From positions 1-34,077 of IMG/VR virus record IMGVR_UViG_3300010883_000191: a stretch of DNA of 34,077 nucleotides; one strand, given 5' to 3'. Position numbers and translations under genes: made by a program. Every line of letters begins with the position of its first letter. The first letter of the stretch is position 1. The notes under the pieces were generated by a model. It saw only the letters and a list, made by a program, of their open reading frames with translations. It had not been told where the DNA came from and searched no databases. Shown piece by piece: positions 3,891 through 33,551 of the stretch. The DNA comes from a virus.

Positions 3891-6800
3891 ATGGCAGACA
3901 AGAACAGAACAGACATAAGAAAAACTGATTTTCTTGTAATACGCTCACAGCAAAATGACGATATTGTTAAGATTGTCACGCCCCAGTATTTTCAGGTTGG
4001 TTTACCTGGCGAGACCTCAGCTGACACTGACTTTGATAAGTCACTTATCATTTATGGAAATGTTAACGCTTCTTCATTCATAGCTAGTAATACGTATGTT
4101 ACAGCAAGCCAAGCCCTTGGCGCGCCTTTAGTAAATACGCAGCTTGTGAAGTCGATTGCGTTAACCGGTTCTTTAACGAAGCTCTCCGATGGTTCATCGT
4201 ACTTAAAAGAGGGATCGAATATTACAATCGCCACAGGTTCAGACGGTCAAATTACCATCGGAGCTTCAGGATTTTCAAACAATCCATTGACTATCGGCGA
4301 TGGCTTAGCATTAAGCCAAGGTACAACATACGACGGGTCTGCTGCAAAAACTATATCTTCACTAGCATATACTAATTACGGATTATCAGTCACTGCACCG
4401 TCCATAGCTGCTGGCGGCGGTGGTATAAGAATTGATTTTGGTAACTTGACTACCGCAACCGTCGCGACATCTGACCGAATTCTGTTTGGCGATGCCAGCC
4501 TATCTGGGGCACCGTATAATTACGCACCTCGATATACTACCGTTGCCGATATTTTAGCTCTTGGAGGAGGTGGCTCACATAGCGCGCTAACGATCGGTCA
4601 GGCTTTACAGCTAGGATCTGGTCAAACCACGTGGGACGGGTCCACAACAGACACGATACTTGTTGCAACTGGTTCCGGCGGCGGCCTAGAAGTTTCAGGC
4701 GACGCGCTAAAAGTTAAATTAGACGCCGCTAGCTTGCAATTAAGTACAGCGGGAATTGCTGTTAACTTAGACGGATCGACTTTAAGCATCGGAGGCTCCG
4801 GCGTCAGCGTTGCAAAAGTTCCAAATGCGTTATCTCAAGGATCAGGAATATCATCCTTTACTTACGATGGTTCTGCAACAGCAATAATTTCTATAGACAC
4901 CCTGACGGTCCCGCGACTGGCTTCCAATAATGCGTTTTCAGGACAAAATACTTTCTCTGCTGTCAATACTTTCTCTGCTGCAAACTCGTTTACAAATAAT
5001 AACACGTTCACAGGTACAAACACGTTTGGAACAATTTTAGCAACGCATAACGAGGTTTCCAGTGGTGTACCGTATCTTGTAGCTGGAAGTAATACCACTG
5101 TTTCTTATAACACGCCACAGACAGGACAAATTACGATTGCGGCATCTTTGGGTTCTGGAAGTCCGCTTACTCAAGGTACCGGTATCGCTACCTTTACATA
5201 CACTGGAGCATCAACAGCAACAGTAGCGATGGATGCTACAAACCTATCTACTTCTGGAGGTAGAAATTCCTACGCATTTTTGTCAAACGGCGGCACAACA
5301 GTAACAAAACAGCTTGTAAGTACATTGATCGATGAAGTAGATCGTACTGCAATAATGAGTGAAGGTGCAGGAATTGATATAACCTTCAACGGTAATAGCA
5401 ACCCAGCAGTAATCGCGACAAAGCTCGACGGTTCGACTATCTCTACTAACGGGTCCGGAAATATAACAGTTAATAAGGTCCCGAACGCTCTCTCACAAGG
5501 AACAGGGATTAAAACATTTTCCTTCGACGGCTCAAGCGCCAAGACTGTGGTTGTAGATAACAGCGTCGTCGCGTGCCTAACCGGTTCTCAATTCAGTGGT
5601 GATGTTGGAATAACTGGGTCTCTAGAAGTTGAAAAGAACACAATTCTTAGAGGCTTAACTCTGCTTCAAGGTAAGACTAGAGCGCTTCACTTTACTGGTT
5701 CACTACAAACGCTTCTCGATGGTACTTCATATCTTAGGGAAGGAAAGCAAATAAGCATAGTCACGCAATCTAACGGTGGCATTCTTATATCATTCGTTCC
5801 AGACCCTGGAGGCGAATCCGGCGGAGGAAATAGTGATAAACGAGCAGAATATCTTGTTCTTACGCCTACTGGGTCATTGACTTCTGAAAGAGTGATGACA
5901 ACCGGTCTCGGCCTCACCTCAACAGACGGAGGCGCTGGTGGAAATTACACGCTAAAAGTGTTGGACTCGATCGTGGCAACCTTAACAGGCTCAGTTTTCA
6001 GCGGCGCAGTAACATCTCCAGCATTCACTGGATCACTCCAGATGCTCAGTGATGGTACAACAAGATATCTTATAGGTACAGGTACTATCAATATTTCAAC
6101 AGCATCAAACGGTCAAGTTATCGTAAGCGGTAGTCAGGGTAAGATCTACTCTGCTGGTACAGGTCTAAAGCTAGCCAGTGATATATTTTCTATTGATAAC
6201 TCTATTGTTGCAACTCTTACTGGTTCTCAATTTAGCGGAAACATAGGCATTACCGGTTCGCTTTCTGTAGAGGGTGACGCTACGTTTAAGACAGGGCTAA
6301 CAGGATCCCTCCAGACACTTAGCGACGGCGCTACTCCATACATCATAGGTACTGGAAGTATTAGTGTCACCACATCGTCCTTGGGTCAACTAGTCATATC
6401 TTCTTCCAACTCTGCCGGCAGCGACGCATCTGTAAGCGTTTCACAAATAGGCGGATCAGAAATAGCATCAGTTTCTAAATTGGTTTTTAGTGCTAGTATT
6501 GTAACTGATGATGGGGGAAACCAGGTAACGATTAAGCCTGTTATTGGATCTGCTGAAGACGGAACATACACTGACGGCTTATTCACTGACCTCACATATT
6601 CAACTCCGGTAGGTACAGCTGTGGATAGATTTAACGAAGTTTTGAAAGGTCTTGCTCCTTCAGCAGCACCCTCACTTGATGATATGGATTGTGATGACTC
6701 AGGAACAAACGCAAAATTATCTTTTGGTTCTGCGCAGTCGATATCAGGTTATACAAACGCTCAACCATCCACGCTCACTCCGACAGACAATCTTTCCGAC

Positions 6801-24070: not shown

Positions 24071-26671
24071 ATGTCCCTTTTTAGGCTTGACAAAAATTAC
24101 TTTGACACTTTCAAGATTCTCACAAAACCAAAACGGAAATTTGTTTCCGGTTCGGGTGAGCTTGTTGGTGCTGTAAAAGTATTCCCATTAGCTGCTATTG
24201 GAATGAAGGAAGTCCCTAAAGAAGCGGCCCCTGACTCCCCACCATTGGGTGACAGTCTAGAAGAATATCGAATGTCTGTTTTAGCAATCACAGCTTCTGC
24301 AGATACTGCGTCTATTTCATATAACGAAATTGACCAATACATGTTGTTGGTAAATTCTGCAAGTACAACTGGAAGAAGAAACAAAGAAGTAGAAATTCTT
24401 CGCTTTGAACCATCATTTAAATTCACTAGCGATACTCTAAGAAAAAGAACGATACAAAAAGTTCTGTTCCCATTTTATAGACCGCAGTATGGTTCAACTT
24501 GTAACTGGGCTTTCACGAATTACCACACTCTTAATTTTTTCAATACTGCTGAGCGTACAGCCGGCGCGCCTGAAAACCACCCGTTAGCATCAGAGATCAA
24601 TAAAATTCCTTCTAGCTCTGTAATGATATATCCCGCAATGTCATCTAGTGCAACAGGTGTTGTCCGGTCAGCCAACAGTCAGGTTAATGGATTGGCCCCA
24701 TATCGTCCTACCGGGTCATTTTCTTTTGAGTTTTATATCAACCCAAGATACTCTTCTTTTGAAAGAGGAGGTGAATTTAAGGCTGGTACAATCTTTCACA
24801 TGTCTAGCTCTTTTGCTTTATCATTGGTCGCAGGTGACTCAAAAGATGATAACGGCTACGTAAATGGATATAGACTGTTATTACAGCTATCTCATAGCGC
24901 AGATATTCCGCCATCTCAAATAGCAATGGATTCATTGGCAGCCCCTAGCGCTGGACATCTAGTTTATTCATCATCGAATAACTCACTAAAAAGAAATCAT
25001 TGGCATTATTGCTGTGTTAGGTGGGGCCGCCATGACCAGAATTCAACTGGATCATTTTTCATTGATGGTGAAGAAAAGGGGACATTCTTGGTTAGAGATA
25101 TGTTTCTCACAGCTAGTGGTTTAACTAATTCTGGCAGCTGGCTACAGGCAACCAATTTAGGACTTCCCACTTCTGCAGATACCGGTGGTAACCCAGGCCG
25201 CGCCCGTCCAGGTGGCTTAGGAATGAAGCGTGGGGCTCCAGATGCTTTATTTCTCGGTAATTATTACGAGGGACCGAATAGCGATGCACCAAGTTGGGGT
25301 GGTTCAGGTACCGACTCTTATATAGCACAGTTTTTTAATCCTCAAGCCGCGTATACTGACGGTATAAAAGACTTTTATCCTACTGTTGATAGAGAGTCTG
25401 TTGATGCACCAACAAATCCAACCACCCATTATTTCCGTCATCCGCTGCAAGCAGAGCTTCATGAGCTTAAGATCTATAGCAGATATAGAAATGACGGTGA
25501 AATACTGACTGCTAGCATCTCCGGTATCGAAAATCTCTATACTGCGTCTTTAGATGGCTTAGAATTCTACGTGCCCCCATTCTTTATGAAGGACACAAAA
25601 CTTCGAGATATTTTTCAAACACCATTCCAGACAGTTCGTGGTTCTACTGACGATCCGTTCAATGTACCGCTTTCTTTTGGGGTTGGTGGTCACTATCTTA
25701 ATCTAGAGAACTTTACAAAAGAGTTAGTGAAAAAAGAATGGCCACGACTATGGAATCTAACTGGAAGTACAATAGACACTTCAACAGGTTGGCAAAGTTG
25801 TAACTACTTTCTATTTACGACCGGAAGTGTAAGAAAAAGAAATCTGACGATACTCCCTAACGATAACGGTCGTTTTTCTCAAAACTTCGATCTGTTGGAA
25901 CAAGCAGTTACCTCCTCTAATTCTTTGAGCTTGTTTGTAGATGATAGAGGAACAAGAAGACTCAGTCTGATTAGTTTGAATAATCTTCTCCCAACAGGAT
26001 CCATTGGTGAAGGTTTACTGGGCGCAGAGAAAGCAGGTTCAATTTCTTCAGCTTTAGCGGGTCCTACTCCTGATGATCCCTCCATACCAGCTGGGTCTAT
26101 ATTAACGATCTATAATCGCACTCGAGATCCTTCTTCGAACGAAGTCTCCTTCTTTGATGCTAGCAATCTTTTTTACGGTAACAAAATCGATCCTGGATCT
26201 TACATCCTAAGAGATCCTGCTATAACAGGCTCAGCGGGTCGTGTTAAGATTACTGTAAAAGACAACCACCGCGGAAATCTTTACAGATGTGATACAACTG
26301 GTAGCCACGCAACGTGGTCTACTGTAGGCACCCTGATGTACGAGGAAGGCTTAGCTGTTATAAAGACACCAGTTATACCTCGCTTCGGTCGGGATCGTTT
26401 TGAGGTTAGTCTAACCGGCCAGCAAAACATTCATAATTTAAGAATGAGTGTACCGGCGGAAGAAGGAAACTTAGACCTGTCTATTAATCCAACATTCAAG
26501 AGTTTAGCGCCATCAGGTCTAACAGCTGATTCGCTCTCTAGCTTTACCTATATAACAAGCGTTAACTTTTTAGATGAGAATCTTAATGTTATACTCAAGT
26601 CAAATTTCTCTCAAGCGATTGTGAAGAGAGTTGATGACAGATTTGTTGTAAGAGTTAAACTGGATTTTTAG
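24071..26671 (+). CDS. Virion protein with LamG/concanavalin-like lectin domain (866 aa)
   Basis: ATG at 24071 follows GGGGGT (24060-24065). Residues ~205-478 read as a laminin-G/concanavalin A-like jelly roll: GSFSFEFYINPRYSS, an IFHMSSSFALSL strand pair, HWHYCCVRWG, SGSFFIDGEEKGTF, DALFLGNYYEGP and finally AELHELKIYSRYR. Such domains bind sugars or provide surface contact in many phage and bacterial proteins. The first ~200 residues form a separate N-terminal domain. Residues ~480-820 are a beta-rich linker region. The last 44 residues (ending DDRFVVRVKLDF) match those of the preceding gene product. Carbohydrate or host-surface binding is plausible but inferred. The stop overlaps the next gene start by one base, directly linking the virion block to the DNA-metabolism block. 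Confidence 0.75.
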   Translation: MSLFRLDKNYFDTFKILTKPKRKFVSGSGELVGAVKVFPLAAIGMKEVPKEAAPDSPPLGDSLEEYRMSVLAITASADTASISYNEIDQYMLLVNSASTTGRRNKEVEILRFEPSFKFTSDTLRKRTIQKVLFPFYRPQYGSTCNWAFTNYHTLNFFNTAERTAGAPENHPLASEINKIPSSSVMIYPAMSSSATGVVRSANSQVNGLAPYRPTGSFSFEFYINPRYSSFERGGEFKAGTIFHMSSSFALSLVAGDSKDDNGYVNGYRLLLQLSHSADIPPSQIAMDSLAAPSAGHLVYSSSNNSLKRNHWHYCCVRWGRHDQNSTGSFFIDGEEKGTFLVRDMFLTASGLTNSGSWLQATNLGLPTSADTGGNPGRARPGGLGMKRGAPDALFLGNYYEGPNSDAPSWGGSGTDSYIAQFFNPQAAYTDGIKDFYPTVDRESVDAPTNPTTHYFRHPLQAELHELKIYSRYRNDGEILTASISGIENLYTASLDGLEFYVPPFFMKDTKLRDIFQTPFQTVRGSTDDPFNVPLSFGVGGHYLNLENFTKELVKKEWPRLWNLTGSTIDTSTGWQSCNYFLFTTGSVRKRNLTILPNDNGRFSQNFDLLEQAVTSSNSLSLFVDDRGTRRLSLISLNNLLPTGSIGEGLLGAEKAGSISSALAGPTPDDPSIPAGSILTIYNRTRDPSSNEVSFFDASNLFYGNKIDPGSYILRDPAITGSAGRVKITVKDNHRGNLYRCDTTGSHATWSTVGTLMYEEGLAVIKTPVIPRFGRDRFEVSLTGQQNIHNLRMSVPAEEGNLDLSINPTFKSLAPSGLTADSLSSFTYITSVNFLDENLNVILKSNFSQAIVKRVDDRFVVRVKLDF

Positions 26672-28198: not shown

Positions 28199-31100
28199 TT
28201 GTCTTTTAAGTGTGCACATTTTGCAGATATACATTTTCGCGGTCTAACAAGGCATGACGAATATCGAAAAGTCTTTACACAGTCATTTAAAGAATTGCGC
28301 GTATTAAAACCCGACGTTATCTTTTTGGGCGGTGATATCGTTCATTCTAAAACGCAGGGGATTAGTCCGGAATTAATCGAGATTTTACGTTGGTGGCTAA
28401 CTTCACTCGCTGAAATAGCTCCTGTTCATATCATTTTGGGAAACCATGATGGTCTAATGCTAAATGAAGATCGTCTTGATGCAATCACCCCGATTGTCAA
28501 AACGATGAACGATCCACGTATCTTGTTAATGAAAGGTACAGGAGTCTATCCTACAGGAGTCTCTGGATATAACTGGTGTACGTTCTGTTGCTTCGATGTT
28601 AAGTCTTGGCCTGATCTTACACCGCCAAAAGAAGGTGTGAATCTAGCCCTATACCACGGCCCAGTAAACGGTTCATTGACAGACCAAGATTGGGAAATAA
28701 ACGGCGATAGCATTAAGATCGATTTCTTTAAAGATTACGATTTTGCTTTATTAGGAGATATTCATAAGCGTCAGTTCTTAACAGACACAATCGCTTACCC
28801 TGGGTCTACGATTCAGCAGAACTATGGGGAAGATATAGAGAAAGGATTTTTGTTCTGGGATATTAAGGATAAAGAAGATTTTACGGTAAAGTTTATCCCG
28901 CTCCATAATCCCCATGCATTCCGGACCATCCAATGGATGGGCGATGTTATTGAGACCTTAGAGCAGCTACCTGAAGAATGGTCTGGTTCTCGATTTAGGA
29001 TCGCCCATAAAGGGATAAACCAATTAGACTTTAGACAACTGCAGTCAGCATTAAAAGAACGCTTTGATTCTTGTGAGATAGTATCAAAAAATGAATCATC
29101 TTCAATGATGGGTTCAGAGGTAGAAATAACAACCTCAATTGGAAAGATTAGTAGAAATGATTTAAGAAGCTTTTCACAGCAAGATAAGCTCATGACTGAC
29201 TTTATATCTAAGTCAGAGATTGACGAGAATGATCGTGACCAATTGCGTAAATTACACAAAGACATTTTTAAGAGATGTGTCCAGCAAGCTACAAGCAAGT
29301 CTCACCAATGGCGTCTTAGAAAATTAACATTTGATAATACGTTTGGATACGGCGAAGGGAACATCATTGACTTCGACGCGCTAAGTGGCATCACGGGTAT
29401 CTTTGGGAAGAATCGGTCCGGGAAGTCTTCTATCCCTGGTACTCTGGTATATTCACTATTTAATTCAACCGACCGCGGCATCCTTAAAAACGTTCATGTT
29501 ATTAACAACAGAAAAACATTCTGTCGTGCAACAACAGACTTCTCTGTTGGTGGAGAAATGTATAGGGCCGATAGACAAACCATCAAGCGCGTTAGCAGGA
29601 GCGGTAGTGTATCAGCACCAACGAATTTAAACCTTTTTAAGATCGATAGCTCTGGTGAAGCCATAGAAGATAACACAGAAGAACAACGAAGAGAAACAGA
29701 AAAAGTTCTTAAAACTTTAGTTGGAGGTGTCGATGATTTTCTTATGACATCATTTGCTTCCCAAGGTGAAATGAATGCATTTATTAGAGAGGGCTCTACA
29801 CGAAGAAAAGCTATTCTTACTAGATTCTTAGACTTGCAGATGTTTGATGACATGCTAAAGATTGCAAAGAACGAAATGTCTGAATTACGTGGCGAAATGA
29901 AGACTGCTCCTGATAAAAATTGGAGCATCTTGATTGAGGAGCAAAAAGACTTACTGTTGGCCTTTAAAGATGAAAAGCAAGAGATTGAAGACGAACTTCA
30001 GGAATTAAGAGAAAAACGAGATGATCTTAAAATAAAGCTAGCAGCCCTTCCTTCTGCTGGGAAGTATACAAAAAAGCAAATCTCAGCACAAGTAAAGAAG
30101 CTGAGCACCCTTGAAGCTCGTTCTCTTAAGCTTGAGCAAAAGATTATAAACCTATCTACTGGCCGCGATGTGGTCTCAAAGCGACTTGAGAAGATAGACA
30201 TCATAAAGAATCAATTCCCTATTGATAAGATAAGAGAACAATCAACACTAAAGAATGAGTTAAAGAGCCAATGTGAACTTGTTGATGCTGGTCTTAATTT
30301 AGAAATACAGAAGTTAAATTCAAAGAAAAAGCTGGCAAAGAAACTTGATAGCGTTCCATGTGGAGATGAGTTTCCAAAGTGTCCCTATATTAAGGATGCA
30401 CATAAAAGTTCACGAGAATTAGATGGACAGAAAGATATCGTTTCAAATATTAGAAAAGAGCTTCGTGCAATTAAATCAAACTTTGATGTGCTCATCGCCG
30501 CCGGTATAGATGAAAAACTAGAAAAATATGAAGAGATACTAAAGCAAGAGCAAGCATTAAAGCTTGAAAATTCTGAAATGAAACTGCAGATGAAAGAGCT
30601 TGAGTCATTGCACCAGGGTGTCGAAACGTCGCTGTCATCGGGTAAGGAGTCGCTGCGTGATATGCGATTAAGATCCGTCGATGATGAAAAAGATTCAGAA
30701 GTTGTAAAGATGCAAAATGATTTATCAGAAATTGAAAGTCGTGTATCTGAGCTAGATGGAAATCGACTTTATTTGGCAGAGCAAATAAGCGTAACAAGAC
30801 AAAGCTGTAAAAACTTTGATGAGGAAAGAGAGCGCTTTGGTGCAATTAAATCGAGATGGGAAATGTATAGCACATTTACACAGGCCGTAGACAAAAAGGG
30901 GATCCCATTAACAATTCTATCCCTGCAGCTACCTCAGATAAATTCTGAATTAACAAAAATACTCCAGGGTGTTGTTAATTTTGATCTTTCTTTAGAGGCG
31001 GATGCTGATTCTAACAATATGGACATCTTCATAGACTATGGCGATTCAAAAAGAATCATTGAGTGTGGCTCTGGAATGGAAAAAATGATAGCGTCCTTGG

Positions 31101-31348
31101 CTCTTCGTGTGGCGTTGATAAACATTTGTAACGCACCTCGAAGTGATGTGCTTATAATCGATGAGGGCTTCGGTGCTTTGGATGATAAGAATATTGAGGC
31201 ATGTTCTCGTTTATTAATATCCCTTAAGAAGTATTTTACTAATATATTGATTATCTCTCATGTTGATGCTGTAAAAGATATTGTTGATAATGTTTTAGAC
31301 ATTCAGAAAGTAGGGAAAGATGCAAAAGTCACATATTCAGAAGCATGA
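28199..31348 (+). CDS. Fused Mre11/SbcD nuclease and Rad50/SbcC ATPase (1049 aa)
   Basis: One uninterrupted frame encodes both halves of the end-processing complex that T4 makes as separate gp47 and gp46. Residues 1-~245 are a metallophosphoesterase nuclease: FADIHFRG (D10, H12), GGDIVHS (D46), LGNHDG (N82, H83), YHGP (H153), LGDIHKRQ (D187, H189). Residues ~250-375 are the capping region. The ATPase begins at about 378 (WRLRKLTFDNTFG), with Walker A GKNRSGKSS (G403, K409, S410). Coiled-coil arms occupy ~520-900, with a hook-like C721-x6-C728 in PCGDEFPKCPYI. The C-lobe has signature CGSGMEK (~956-962) and Walker B VLIIDEGFGALDD (D988, E989). It should resect or trim DNA ends for recombination-dependent replication. 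In classical Mre11 and SbcD the position of D187 is usually His. Start TTG, with GAGAGG upstream. Confidence 0.92.
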   Translation: MSFKCAHFADIHFRGLTRHDEYRKVFTQSFKELRVLKPDVIFLGGDIVHSKTQGISPELIEILRWWLTSLAEIAPVHIILGNHDGLMLNEDRLDAITPIVKTMNDPRILLMKGTGVYPTGVSGYNWCTFCCFDVKSWPDLTPPKEGVNLALYHGPVNGSLTDQDWEINGDSIKIDFFKDYDFALLGDIHKRQFLTDTIAYPGSTIQQNYGEDIEKGFLFWDIKDKEDFTVKFIPLHNPHAFRTIQWMGDVIETLEQLPEEWSGSRFRIAHKGINQLDFRQLQSALKERFDSCEIVSKNESSSMMGSEVEITTSIGKISRNDLRSFSQQDKLMTDFISKSEIDENDRDQLRKLHKDIFKRCVQQATSKSHQWRLRKLTFDNTFGYGEGNIIDFDALSGITGIFGKNRSGKSSIPGTLVYSLFNSTDRGILKNVHVINNRKTFCRATTDFSVGGEMYRADRQTIKRVSRSGSVSAPTNLNLFKIDSSGEAIEDNTEEQRRETEKVLKTLVGGVDDFLMTSFASQGEMNAFIREGSTRRKAILTRFLDLQMFDDMLKIAKNEMSELRGEMKTAPDKNWSILIEEQKDLLLAFKDEKQEIEDELQELREKRDDLKIKLAALPSAGKYTKKQISAQVKKLSTLEARSLKLEQKIINLSTGRDVVSKRLEKIDIIKNQFPIDKIREQSTLKNELKSQCELVDAGLNLEIQKLNSKKKLAKKLDSVPCGDEFPKCPYIKDAHKSSRELDGQKDIVSNIRKELRAIKSNFDVLIAAGIDEKLEKYEEILKQEQALKLENSEMKLQMKELESLHQGVETSLSSGKESLRDMRLRSVDDEKDSEVVKMQNDLSEIESRVSELDGNRLYLAEQISVTRQSCKNFDEERERFGAIKSRWEMYSTFTQAVDKKGIPLTILSLQLPQINSELTKILQGVVNFDLSLEADADSNNMDIFIDYGDSKRIIECGSGMEKMIASLALRVALINICNAPRSDVLIIDEGFGALDDKNIEACSRLLISLKKYFTNILIISHVDAVKDIVDNVLDIQKVGKDAKVTYSEA

Positions 31349-31955: not shown

Positions 31956-33551
31956 ATGCCCCCTCTGAATAAGCAAAAACAGGTTGCAGAAATTGTTAAG
32001 TGTGGAAAAGATCCCACTTATTTTATCAACCGGTATGTTCAAATTCAGCATCCGATACGTGGCCGGATTCCATTTCATACTTTTCCATTTCAAGATGATT
32101 GTCTCCAGCACTTTAACGACCATCGTTATAATGTAGTCGTAAAGTCTAGACAGCTTGGTCTTTCAACGCTATCTGCAGCATATGCAGTGTGGATGGCTCT
32201 TTTTCGAAAAGATAAGACGATCCTTGTTATTGCAACAAAGCTTGCTGTTGCTCAGAACTTTATTAAGAAAGTAAAGATTGCACTTTCTGGTATTCCAAAG
32301 TGGATGTGGATTACTGAGATCACTGCAAAAAATACTCAAGCTATAGAATTCTCAAACGGCTCAGCGATCAAGGCAGTCCCAACATCAGATGATGCAGGTC
32401 GTTCAGAGGCGCTAAGTTTGTTGATCGTTGATGAAGCTGCCTTTATTAGGAACTTTGATGAGCTCTGGAAAGGGCTCTATCCTACCTTGTCGACTGGTGG
32501 CCGAGCTATAATCGTTAGCACGCCGAATGGCACGGGTGGGCAGTACTATGACATCTATCACAACGCTGTAAGCGGTGAAAATGAATTTAATCCAATAAAG
32601 CTCCCATGGGATGTTCATCCAGAAAGAGGGGAAGAATGGTTCGCGAATGAGGCTAAGAATCTAAATAAGCAACAAATTGCTCAAGAGCTTTTATGTGATT
32701 TCCAGGCATCTGGAGAAACGTTTCTTGCGACAGATGATATAGCAAAACTGCGTATGCAAGTAAAGCAACCTCTGGAGAAGTGGGGTCCTTCAAACGCTGT
32801 GTGGGTCTGGAAATATGTTGTGAATGATCATGAATATGTTATCTCCGCCGATGTGGCCCGCGGTGATGGAGCTGATTATTCTACATTTCATGTTATAGAC
32901 ACAACAGACTCAGAGGTAGTTGCAGAGTTTAAGGGAAAGGTTCCCCCTGACCAGTTAGCCTTTTTGTTGGTAGAGGCCTCAAGAAGATATTCTGAGGCAA
33001 TAATATGCCCAGAAAATAACACATACGGTTACGCTGTCTTAATGAAGCTAAAAGAGCTCGGCTGCCGGCACATCTACTTTAAGAAAGAAAAAGATAAGTT
33101 TAACGCTCTCTATGGTGACGGATCCATCGGTAAGGCTGGCTTTGCCACGCAAGGGAACAGTCGACCCCAGATCTTAACAAAGCTAGAGGAAGTTATAAGA
33201 AATAATAAGATCTCTATATACTCTTCTAGACTAGTCGATGAGCTTAAAACATTCGTTTGGACCAATAATAAAGCCCAAGCGCAACGTGGTAAAAATGATG
33301 ACCTCGTAATATCTCTTGCTATTGGCGTCTGGCTTTATGATGCAAAAGAAAAAAAGCAGGTAAAGGGATTAGATATGAATTCCGCTATGCTAGCCGGGTT
33401 TGCAATAAATAATACAAAAAAGGCTATCCATAAGGACATGTCCCCCTTTAATCAGCAGGTAGGTATACTTACAGCAAGAGGGATGCCTGTCTCTATGGAC
33501 GAAGGCCACCCGGCGTTGTCCGGGTCAGCAGATTTTAAGTGGCTTCTGTAA
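31956..33551 (+). CDS. Terminase large subunit, T4 gp17-type (531 aa)
   Basis: The DNA-packaging motor: an ATPase that pumps DNA into the prohead and a nuclease that cuts the concatemer. The adenine-binding Q motif is FPFQDD (Q46). The Walker A-like loop is VKSRQLGLST (K63, G68, S70, T71), Walker B LLIVDEAAF (D159, E160), and the coupling motif STPNGTGG (S188, T189). The RNase H-fold nuclease has ISADVARGDGADYS (D299), CPENN (E353) and GKNDDLV (D448, D449). The length is somewhat shorter than T4 gp17 (610 aa). In T4 gp17 the loop reads SRQLGKTT; here Leu occupies the usual Lys position and K63 lies at the loop start, an arrangement seen in other terminases. ATG 31956 has GAGAGG upstream, and the portal gene follows directly. 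Confidence 0.93.
   Translation: MPPLNKQKQVAEIVKCGKDPTYFINRYVQIQHPIRGRIPFHTFPFQDDCLQHFNDHRYNVVVKSRQLGLSTLSAAYAVWMALFRKDKTILVIATKLAVAQNFIKKVKIALSGIPKWMWITEITAKNTQAIEFSNGSAIKAVPTSDDAGRSEALSLLIVDEAAFIRNFDELWKGLYPTLSTGGRAIIVSTPNGTGGQYYDIYHNAVSGENEFNPIKLPWDVHPERGEEWFANEAKNLNKQQIAQELLCDFQASGETFLATDDIAKLRMQVKQPLEKWGPSNAVWVWKYVVNDHEYVISADVARGDGADYSTFHVIDTTDSEVVAEFKGKVPPDQLAFLLVEASRRYSEAIICPENNTYGYAVLMKLKELGCRHIYFKKEKDKFNALYGDGSIGKAGFATQGNSRPQILTKLEEVIRNNKISIYSSRLVDELKTFVWTNNKAQAQRGKNDDLVISLAIGVWLYDAKEKKQVKGLDMNSAMLAGFAINNTKKAIHKDMSPFNQQVGILTARGMPVSMDEGHPALSGSADFKWLL

Follow-up and report, generated by a model that had tools for sequence, protein, structure and literature searches.

A single-chain Mre11-Rad50 (SbcD-SbcC) protein with an altered cysteine hook in an uncultured T4-like phage, with a probable role in DNA end resection

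The window analysed here is the whole 34,077-nucleotide stretch of IMG/VR virus record IMGVR_UViG_3300010883_000191, in which a single open frame of 1049 codons encodes both an Mre11/SbcD nuclease and a Rad50/SbcC ATPase (Table 1). The sequence-only reading of this locus had described an uninterrupted frame with the nuclease N-terminal to the ATPase and a consequently fixed 1:1 ratio of the two activities, and this description stands. An in-frame stop lies two codons upstream of the TTG start codon, which is kept in seven near relatives. Pfam Metallophos (residues 4-190, E 2e-10) and AAA_23 (residues 375-606, E 1e-7) both exceed their cut-offs, SbcC_Walker_B (residues 953-1006, E 1e-4) falls under its own, PHROG_77 (SbcC) matches residues 248-1047 with an E value of 2.5e-47, and the PDB sequences matched by phmmer are those of SbcC, Rad50 and Mre11 structures. 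The ATPase half presents the Rad50/SbcC set of Walker A, signature, Walker B and D-loop, with a long antiparallel coiled coil inserted between its two parts, and it is on features other than the hook that its membership of this fold family rests. An Mre11-type nuclease N-terminal to a Rad50-type ATPase in one frame is the arrangement that defines an Mre11/Rad50 fusion. All the motifs named in the sequence-only reading are found, although the last nuclease motif reads GDIH against the canonical GHxH and the hook is CX6C against CXXC.

Table 1. Features of the fused gene and of its neighbours in the window (residue numbers refer to the 1049-residue product).
Feature	Position	Strand	Remarks
RuvC-like Holliday junction resolvase, 182 aa	26671..27219	+	PHROG_159, E 2e-9
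DnaG-like primase, 324 aa	27212..28186	+	Zinc ribbon and TOPRIM-type, without helicase part; PHROG_47, E 4e-36; directly upstream of the fusion
Fused Mre11/SbcD-Rad50/SbcC gene	28199..31348	+	1049 aa, TTG start
Calcineurin-like nuclease domain, residues 1-240	28199..28918	+	Pfam Metallophos 4-190; strands and helices in model
Motif I, D10-I-H12	28226..28234	+	D10 and H12 in 94/95 fused sequences, the other having a gap
Motif II, G45-D46-I-V-H49	28331..28345	+	GDxxH replaces GDxxD; H49 in 92/95 fused sequences
Motif III, G81-N82-H83-D84	28439..28450	+	N82 and H83 in 95/95
Motif IV, Y152-H153-G154	28652..28660	+	H153 in 95/95
Motif V, G186-D187-I188-H189	28754..28765	+	GDxH replaces canonical GHxH; D187 in 95/95
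Predicted capping domain, residues 241-298	28919..29092	+	Model fold; T. maritima Mre11 and E. coli SbcD matched by profile
Predicted Rad50-binding helix-loop-helix, residues 325-361	29171..29281	+	Model helices; T4 gp47 C-terminus alignment; Mre11/SbcD profile matches
Linker of about 8 residues (362-369), helix-loop-helix to first ATPase strand	29282..29305	+	pLDDT 59
Rad50 ATPase N-lobe, residues 370-545	29306..29833	+	AAA_23 375-606; K409 in 95/95
Walker A GKNRSGKS, residues 403-410	29405-29428	+	
Ascending coiled-coil arm, residues 547-718	29837..30352	+	Model helices
Hook loop, residues 719-731	30353..30391	+	CX6C; C721 at 30359-30361, C728 at 30380-30382
Descending coiled-coil arm, residues 732-897	30392..30889	+	Model helices
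Rad50 ATPase C-lobe with D-loop, residues 902-1047	30902..31339	+	
Signature SGMEK, residues 958-962	31070-31084	+	In place of SGGE
Walker B LIIDEG	31145-31165	+	
T4-type terminase large subunit	31956..33551	+	Terminase_6N, E 7e-16; PHROG_2, E 6e-49

The nuclease half contains the metallophosphoesterase motifs D-x-H, GD, GNHD/E and H, while GHxH reads GDxH in all 95 fused sequences aligned. At the metal-ligand positions, 94-95 of the 95 retain D10, H12, D46, N82, H153 and H189, and the catalytic and ATPase residues are conserved to the same extent. At the D187 position the SbcD proteins of T4, E. coli, Herelleviridae, a cyanophage and a Moorella phage have histidine, while in the same alignment an aspartate is also seen in the split SbcD of Vibrio phages KF5 and D239; a histidine equivalent to H49 is likewise found in Staphylococcus/Listeria/SIOphi SbcD. 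The corresponding two substitutions, His for the third Asp of GDxxD and Asp for the first His of GHxH, have been described in Mimivirus R555 (PMC3175470). Replacement of a metal-binding histidine by D187 throughout the fused sequences, with its counterpart in R555, might be taken to mean that GDxH and GDxxH leave the nuclease half catalytically dead and that the protein serves as an ATP-dependent DNA tether or clamp. We consider this improbable, as the remaining metal-ligand positions are conserved, the substitution is uniformly to aspartate, a residue that binds Mn2+ well, and it is shared by two split phage SbcD proteins. With GDxH in place of GHxH at a metal ligand, nuclease activity could be changed or reduced.

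At the junction of the two halves, the capping region had been proposed to run straight into the ATPase N-lobe, with a covalent tether replacing the helix-loop-helix by which Mre11 binds Rad50. An AlphaFold2 model built from 68 sequences (mean pLDDT 83), which supersedes a poor earlier one built from nine (pLDDT 54), predicts a strand-helix-strand-helix-strand unit with the capping fold at residues 241-298, helices at 325-337 and 343-361 (block pLDDT 82-87) and a low-confidence stretch at about 362-369 before the first ATPase strand starts at 370; its pTM is just 0.45, with a long coiled coil, so that the arrangement of the domains in the model is not established. A profile of residues 1-372, built from 11 fused proteins, aligns with residues 203-375 of the T. 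maritima Mre11 chain in the Mre11:Rad50 crystal 3qg5 (query 179-355) and with 207-399 of E. coli SbcD in 6s6v (query 171-363), 6s85 being matched as well, and thus reaches the C-terminal parts of Mre11/SbcD. With hhalign, the match of the fused proteins to T4 gp47 and a cyanophage relative continues into the first helix (E 1e-9), and the family alignment places the gp47 C-terminus along both junction helices. Replacement of the helix-loop-helix by a tether is unsupported; its loss is rejected on the model helices, the gp47 alignment and the Mre11/SbcD profile matches. By the same evidence, the Rad50-binding helix-loop-helix is predicted to be retained, with about eight residues following it. 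The distance from the Mre11 C-terminus to the Rad50 N-terminus in the T. maritima complex is about 28 Å, a span of 9-12 residues (PMC3175470), which is near the length of the linker in the fused phage protein; we infer that the helix-loop-helix would bind in cis.

The fused gene follows directly on a primase gene, and this adjacency is conserved. Among the matches listed, a primase homologue lies upstream in 224 of the 226 fused loci with at least 1.2 kb of upstream sequence, and it ends no more than 150 nt from the fusion frame in 189 of these 226. The nearest cultured record to the terminase is Microcystis phage Mel-JY01 (41%), and the next cultured terminase relative, Flavobacterium phage immuto, has no PHROG_77 match. 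Upstream of the resolvase, an 866-aa ORF (24071-26671) has no PHROG match, and 78 of the loci fetched have homologues of it on the upstream side of the fusion; ten further large ORFs (187-1467 aa) between 103 and 24059 have no PHROG match at E 0.001 despite the T4-type terminase on the contig. Ten relatives on contigs of 119-289 kb, which are possibly incomplete, have one PHROG_77 match each, and nine of the ten have one Metallophos match. In one relative, L094 (288,697 bases), a second, separate metallophosphoesterase is found at G008:C1:69431-69961 besides the fusion.

Sequence and model together make it highly probable (about 0.87) that the product of this gene is the Mre11-Rad50 (SbcD-SbcC) complex of a marine T4-like phage in single-chain form, with a predicted role in end resection for recombination-dependent replication and repair. 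Two chains would most likely assemble as in ordinary Mre11-Rad50, with the nuclease domains dimerising, the ATPase heads sandwiching ATP, the retained helix-loop-helix bound at the coiled-coil base and the tips linked via the cysteine hook. DNA ends would be resected to 3' single strands for recombination-dependent replication and repair in the manner of T4 gp46/gp47, which act in recombination-dependent replication (PMC3175470), and the fusion would work beside the neighbouring primase and RuvC-like resolvase. The alignments and the model present the conserved frame, all of the domains, the helix-loop-helix and the catalytic motifs, as well as the fusion as the sole SbcC-like gene detected in the ten relatives, while resection is the most likely role by analogy with the family and from the gene context. 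The T4 gp46/gp47 record carries the note that these proteins are also needed for degradation of host DNA, which would fit a protein that attacks competing or host DNA, as a weapon or in host takeover, and not the phage's own ends; such a function appears very unlikely here, since the conserved adjacency to primase and the lack of any other detected SbcC-like gene in the ten relatives suit a core role in replication and recombination.

A comparison of fused and split arrangements across phage genomes, as the sequence-only reading had proposed, reveals that the fusion is widespread in uncultured phages. In at least 243 loci (at least 184 distinct by their last 300 residues) one frame spans both the nuclease and the N-lobe of the ATPase, a count which comes from scans of viral contigs with the protein and three alignments, between which the same loci partly recur, and which includes the locus of the window itself along with four phage records (L014-L017); at least 175 distinct sequences contain all three parts tested. 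The viral contigs fetched without a fusion are those that end before reaching the nuclease. Near relatives from other samples, with 82-85% identity, are also fused, and seven near full-length relatives are free of internal stops around 29200-29330, where a stop or frameshift would have marked the fusion as spurious. Codon differences at the junction fall mostly in the third position (43-53, against 16-20 in the first and 5-11 in the second), these counts being used in place of dS, which is saturated in all but one pair. The suggestion that assembly or sequencing erased a stop or frameshift separating two genes is refuted by these independent, conserved fused copies, even though such artefacts do occur, as in Listeria phage LMTA-57, which presents an apparent fusion against two genes in its sister record LMSP-25. 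The sole difference between the two Listeria records (a fused 'recombination exonuclease' at L016:2995-6024 and its counterpart at L099:917-3947) is one missing A in an A-run, and one or the other probably holds a sequencing error.

The tblastn search of 50,697 phage records (E 1e-5) yielded 564 matches, among which Microcystis phage Mel-JY01, LR756508 and LR756501 (with its near copy LR756503) contain the fused gene or a clear derivative, and the other records opened have the split arrangement, LMTA-57 excepted. A scan of bacterial genomes returned distant matches only, and the ten long-match loci inspected have separate D and C genes in every case. In LR756508, a 484 kb uncultured phage, the homologue (L015:4944-9169) has an insert within its nuclease domain, following LLGDIHKRQ, with a separate ORF (5665-6582) that looks like an intron-borne or homing endonuclease gene, and the rest of the gene picks up at 6584. 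The 735 kb phage LR756501 (L017) encodes a fusion of 1202 aa, and another stretch of its genome (670999-672753) matches PHROG_77 more strongly than that fusion, so that the phage may carry two Rad50-like systems. A clade of oceanic hinge-less SMC proteins was set aside as a candidate relative, being assigned to actinobacteria by authors who found no viral homologue (PMC12153180).

The hook departs from the CXXC motif described as conserved (PMC9569753). The C721/C728 pair of the window protein is invariant in the 68-sequence alignment of its clade, and the distinct full fused sequences among the matches listed comprise 86 with CX6C, 86 with CXXC and three with another arrangement. CX6C marks one of the two main branches of fused sequences, while CXXC is found in its sister branch and in eight of nine split comparison sequences. 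The three further arrangements, namely three cysteines over 20 residues in L089, CX3C in L185 and CX7C in L207, indicate that the hook is variable in this fused branch. One cysteine of CX6C is paired by the alignment with one of CXXC, and either cysteine fits, so that the knuckle may be longer or one ligand may have moved. No account of a CX6C hook was found in the literature searched, a search with most subscription journals outside its scope. We tentatively propose from these sequences that the zinc hook may have been rebuilt in the CX6C branch, the tips joining by an altered metal knuckle or by another contact, and that, together with the 1:1 chain and GDxH, this might have changed the tethering of DNA ends. 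To a specialist, the CX6C branch may be the unexpected part.

A tree of 66 sequences was calculated from the nuclease, junction and ATPase columns, leaving out the coiled coil and hook. One branch (SH-aLRT 99) parts nine split systems from 57 fused sequences, and the difference between CXXC and CX6C corresponds to one change on the tree, with the three other arrangements uncounted. A single origin of the fusion is thus likely, within this phage set only, as the tree is a quick search without bootstrap in which long branches meet (E. coli, Moorella, Vibrio phages, L017, L186 and L231) and which does not include the fusions already published (those of cells, of Mimivirus and of Bacillus phage 0305phi8-36).

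Mre11/Rad50 fusions were described in Mimivirus (R555), Bacillus phage 0305phi8-36 and Clostridium kluyveri plasmids by Yoshida et al. in 2011 (PMC3175470). The claim that the two activities reside in separate proteins in T4 and in cells is therefore correct for T4 and E. coli but not in general, fused cellular and viral versions being known from that work. The order of an N-terminal nuclease and a C-terminal ATPase in one chain is the same in R555, and its substitutions, as published, match GDIVH and GDIH of the phage fusion, which suggests that R555 is the closest described relative. R555 is however longer, with 1351 aa against 1049 aa for a fusion that lies on a prokaryotic virus contig with a T4-type terminase. 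Abundant aquatic and marine homologues of R555 were inferred to be phage genes, and their scaffolds carry primase genes (PMC3175470), just as a primase adjoins the fusion here; the hook is not discussed in that paper. T4 gp47 and gp46 have homologous domains with D before C, and the helix-loop-helix at the end of gp47 aligns to the fusion junction, but they are encoded by two genes with two small genes between them and have GHxH and a CPTC hook. E. coli SbcD and SbcC share the same domains, the profile matching SbcD through the helix-loop-helix and the fusion also matching SbcC, but are the products of two genes, with a longer coiled coil and a CPLC hook. The Microcystis phage Mel-JY01 protein (WWT39521.1) is fused, with 1066 aa and primase just upstream, but has about 30% identity and a CXXC hook, and is annotated only as 'AAA domain containing protein'. 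The kind of fusion is thus already published, and the altered cysteine hook is the less expected detail.

For structural studies of a central repair enzyme, the single-chain Mre11-Rad50 would be convenient, because it has a fixed stoichiometry and a tethered helix-loop-helix contact. According to the census, the fusion belongs to a large set of uncultured T4-like phages, in agreement with the 2011 inference on the aquatic R555 homologues (PMC3175470), and the CX6C branch is a test provided by nature of whether the Rad50 hook strictly requires CXXC.
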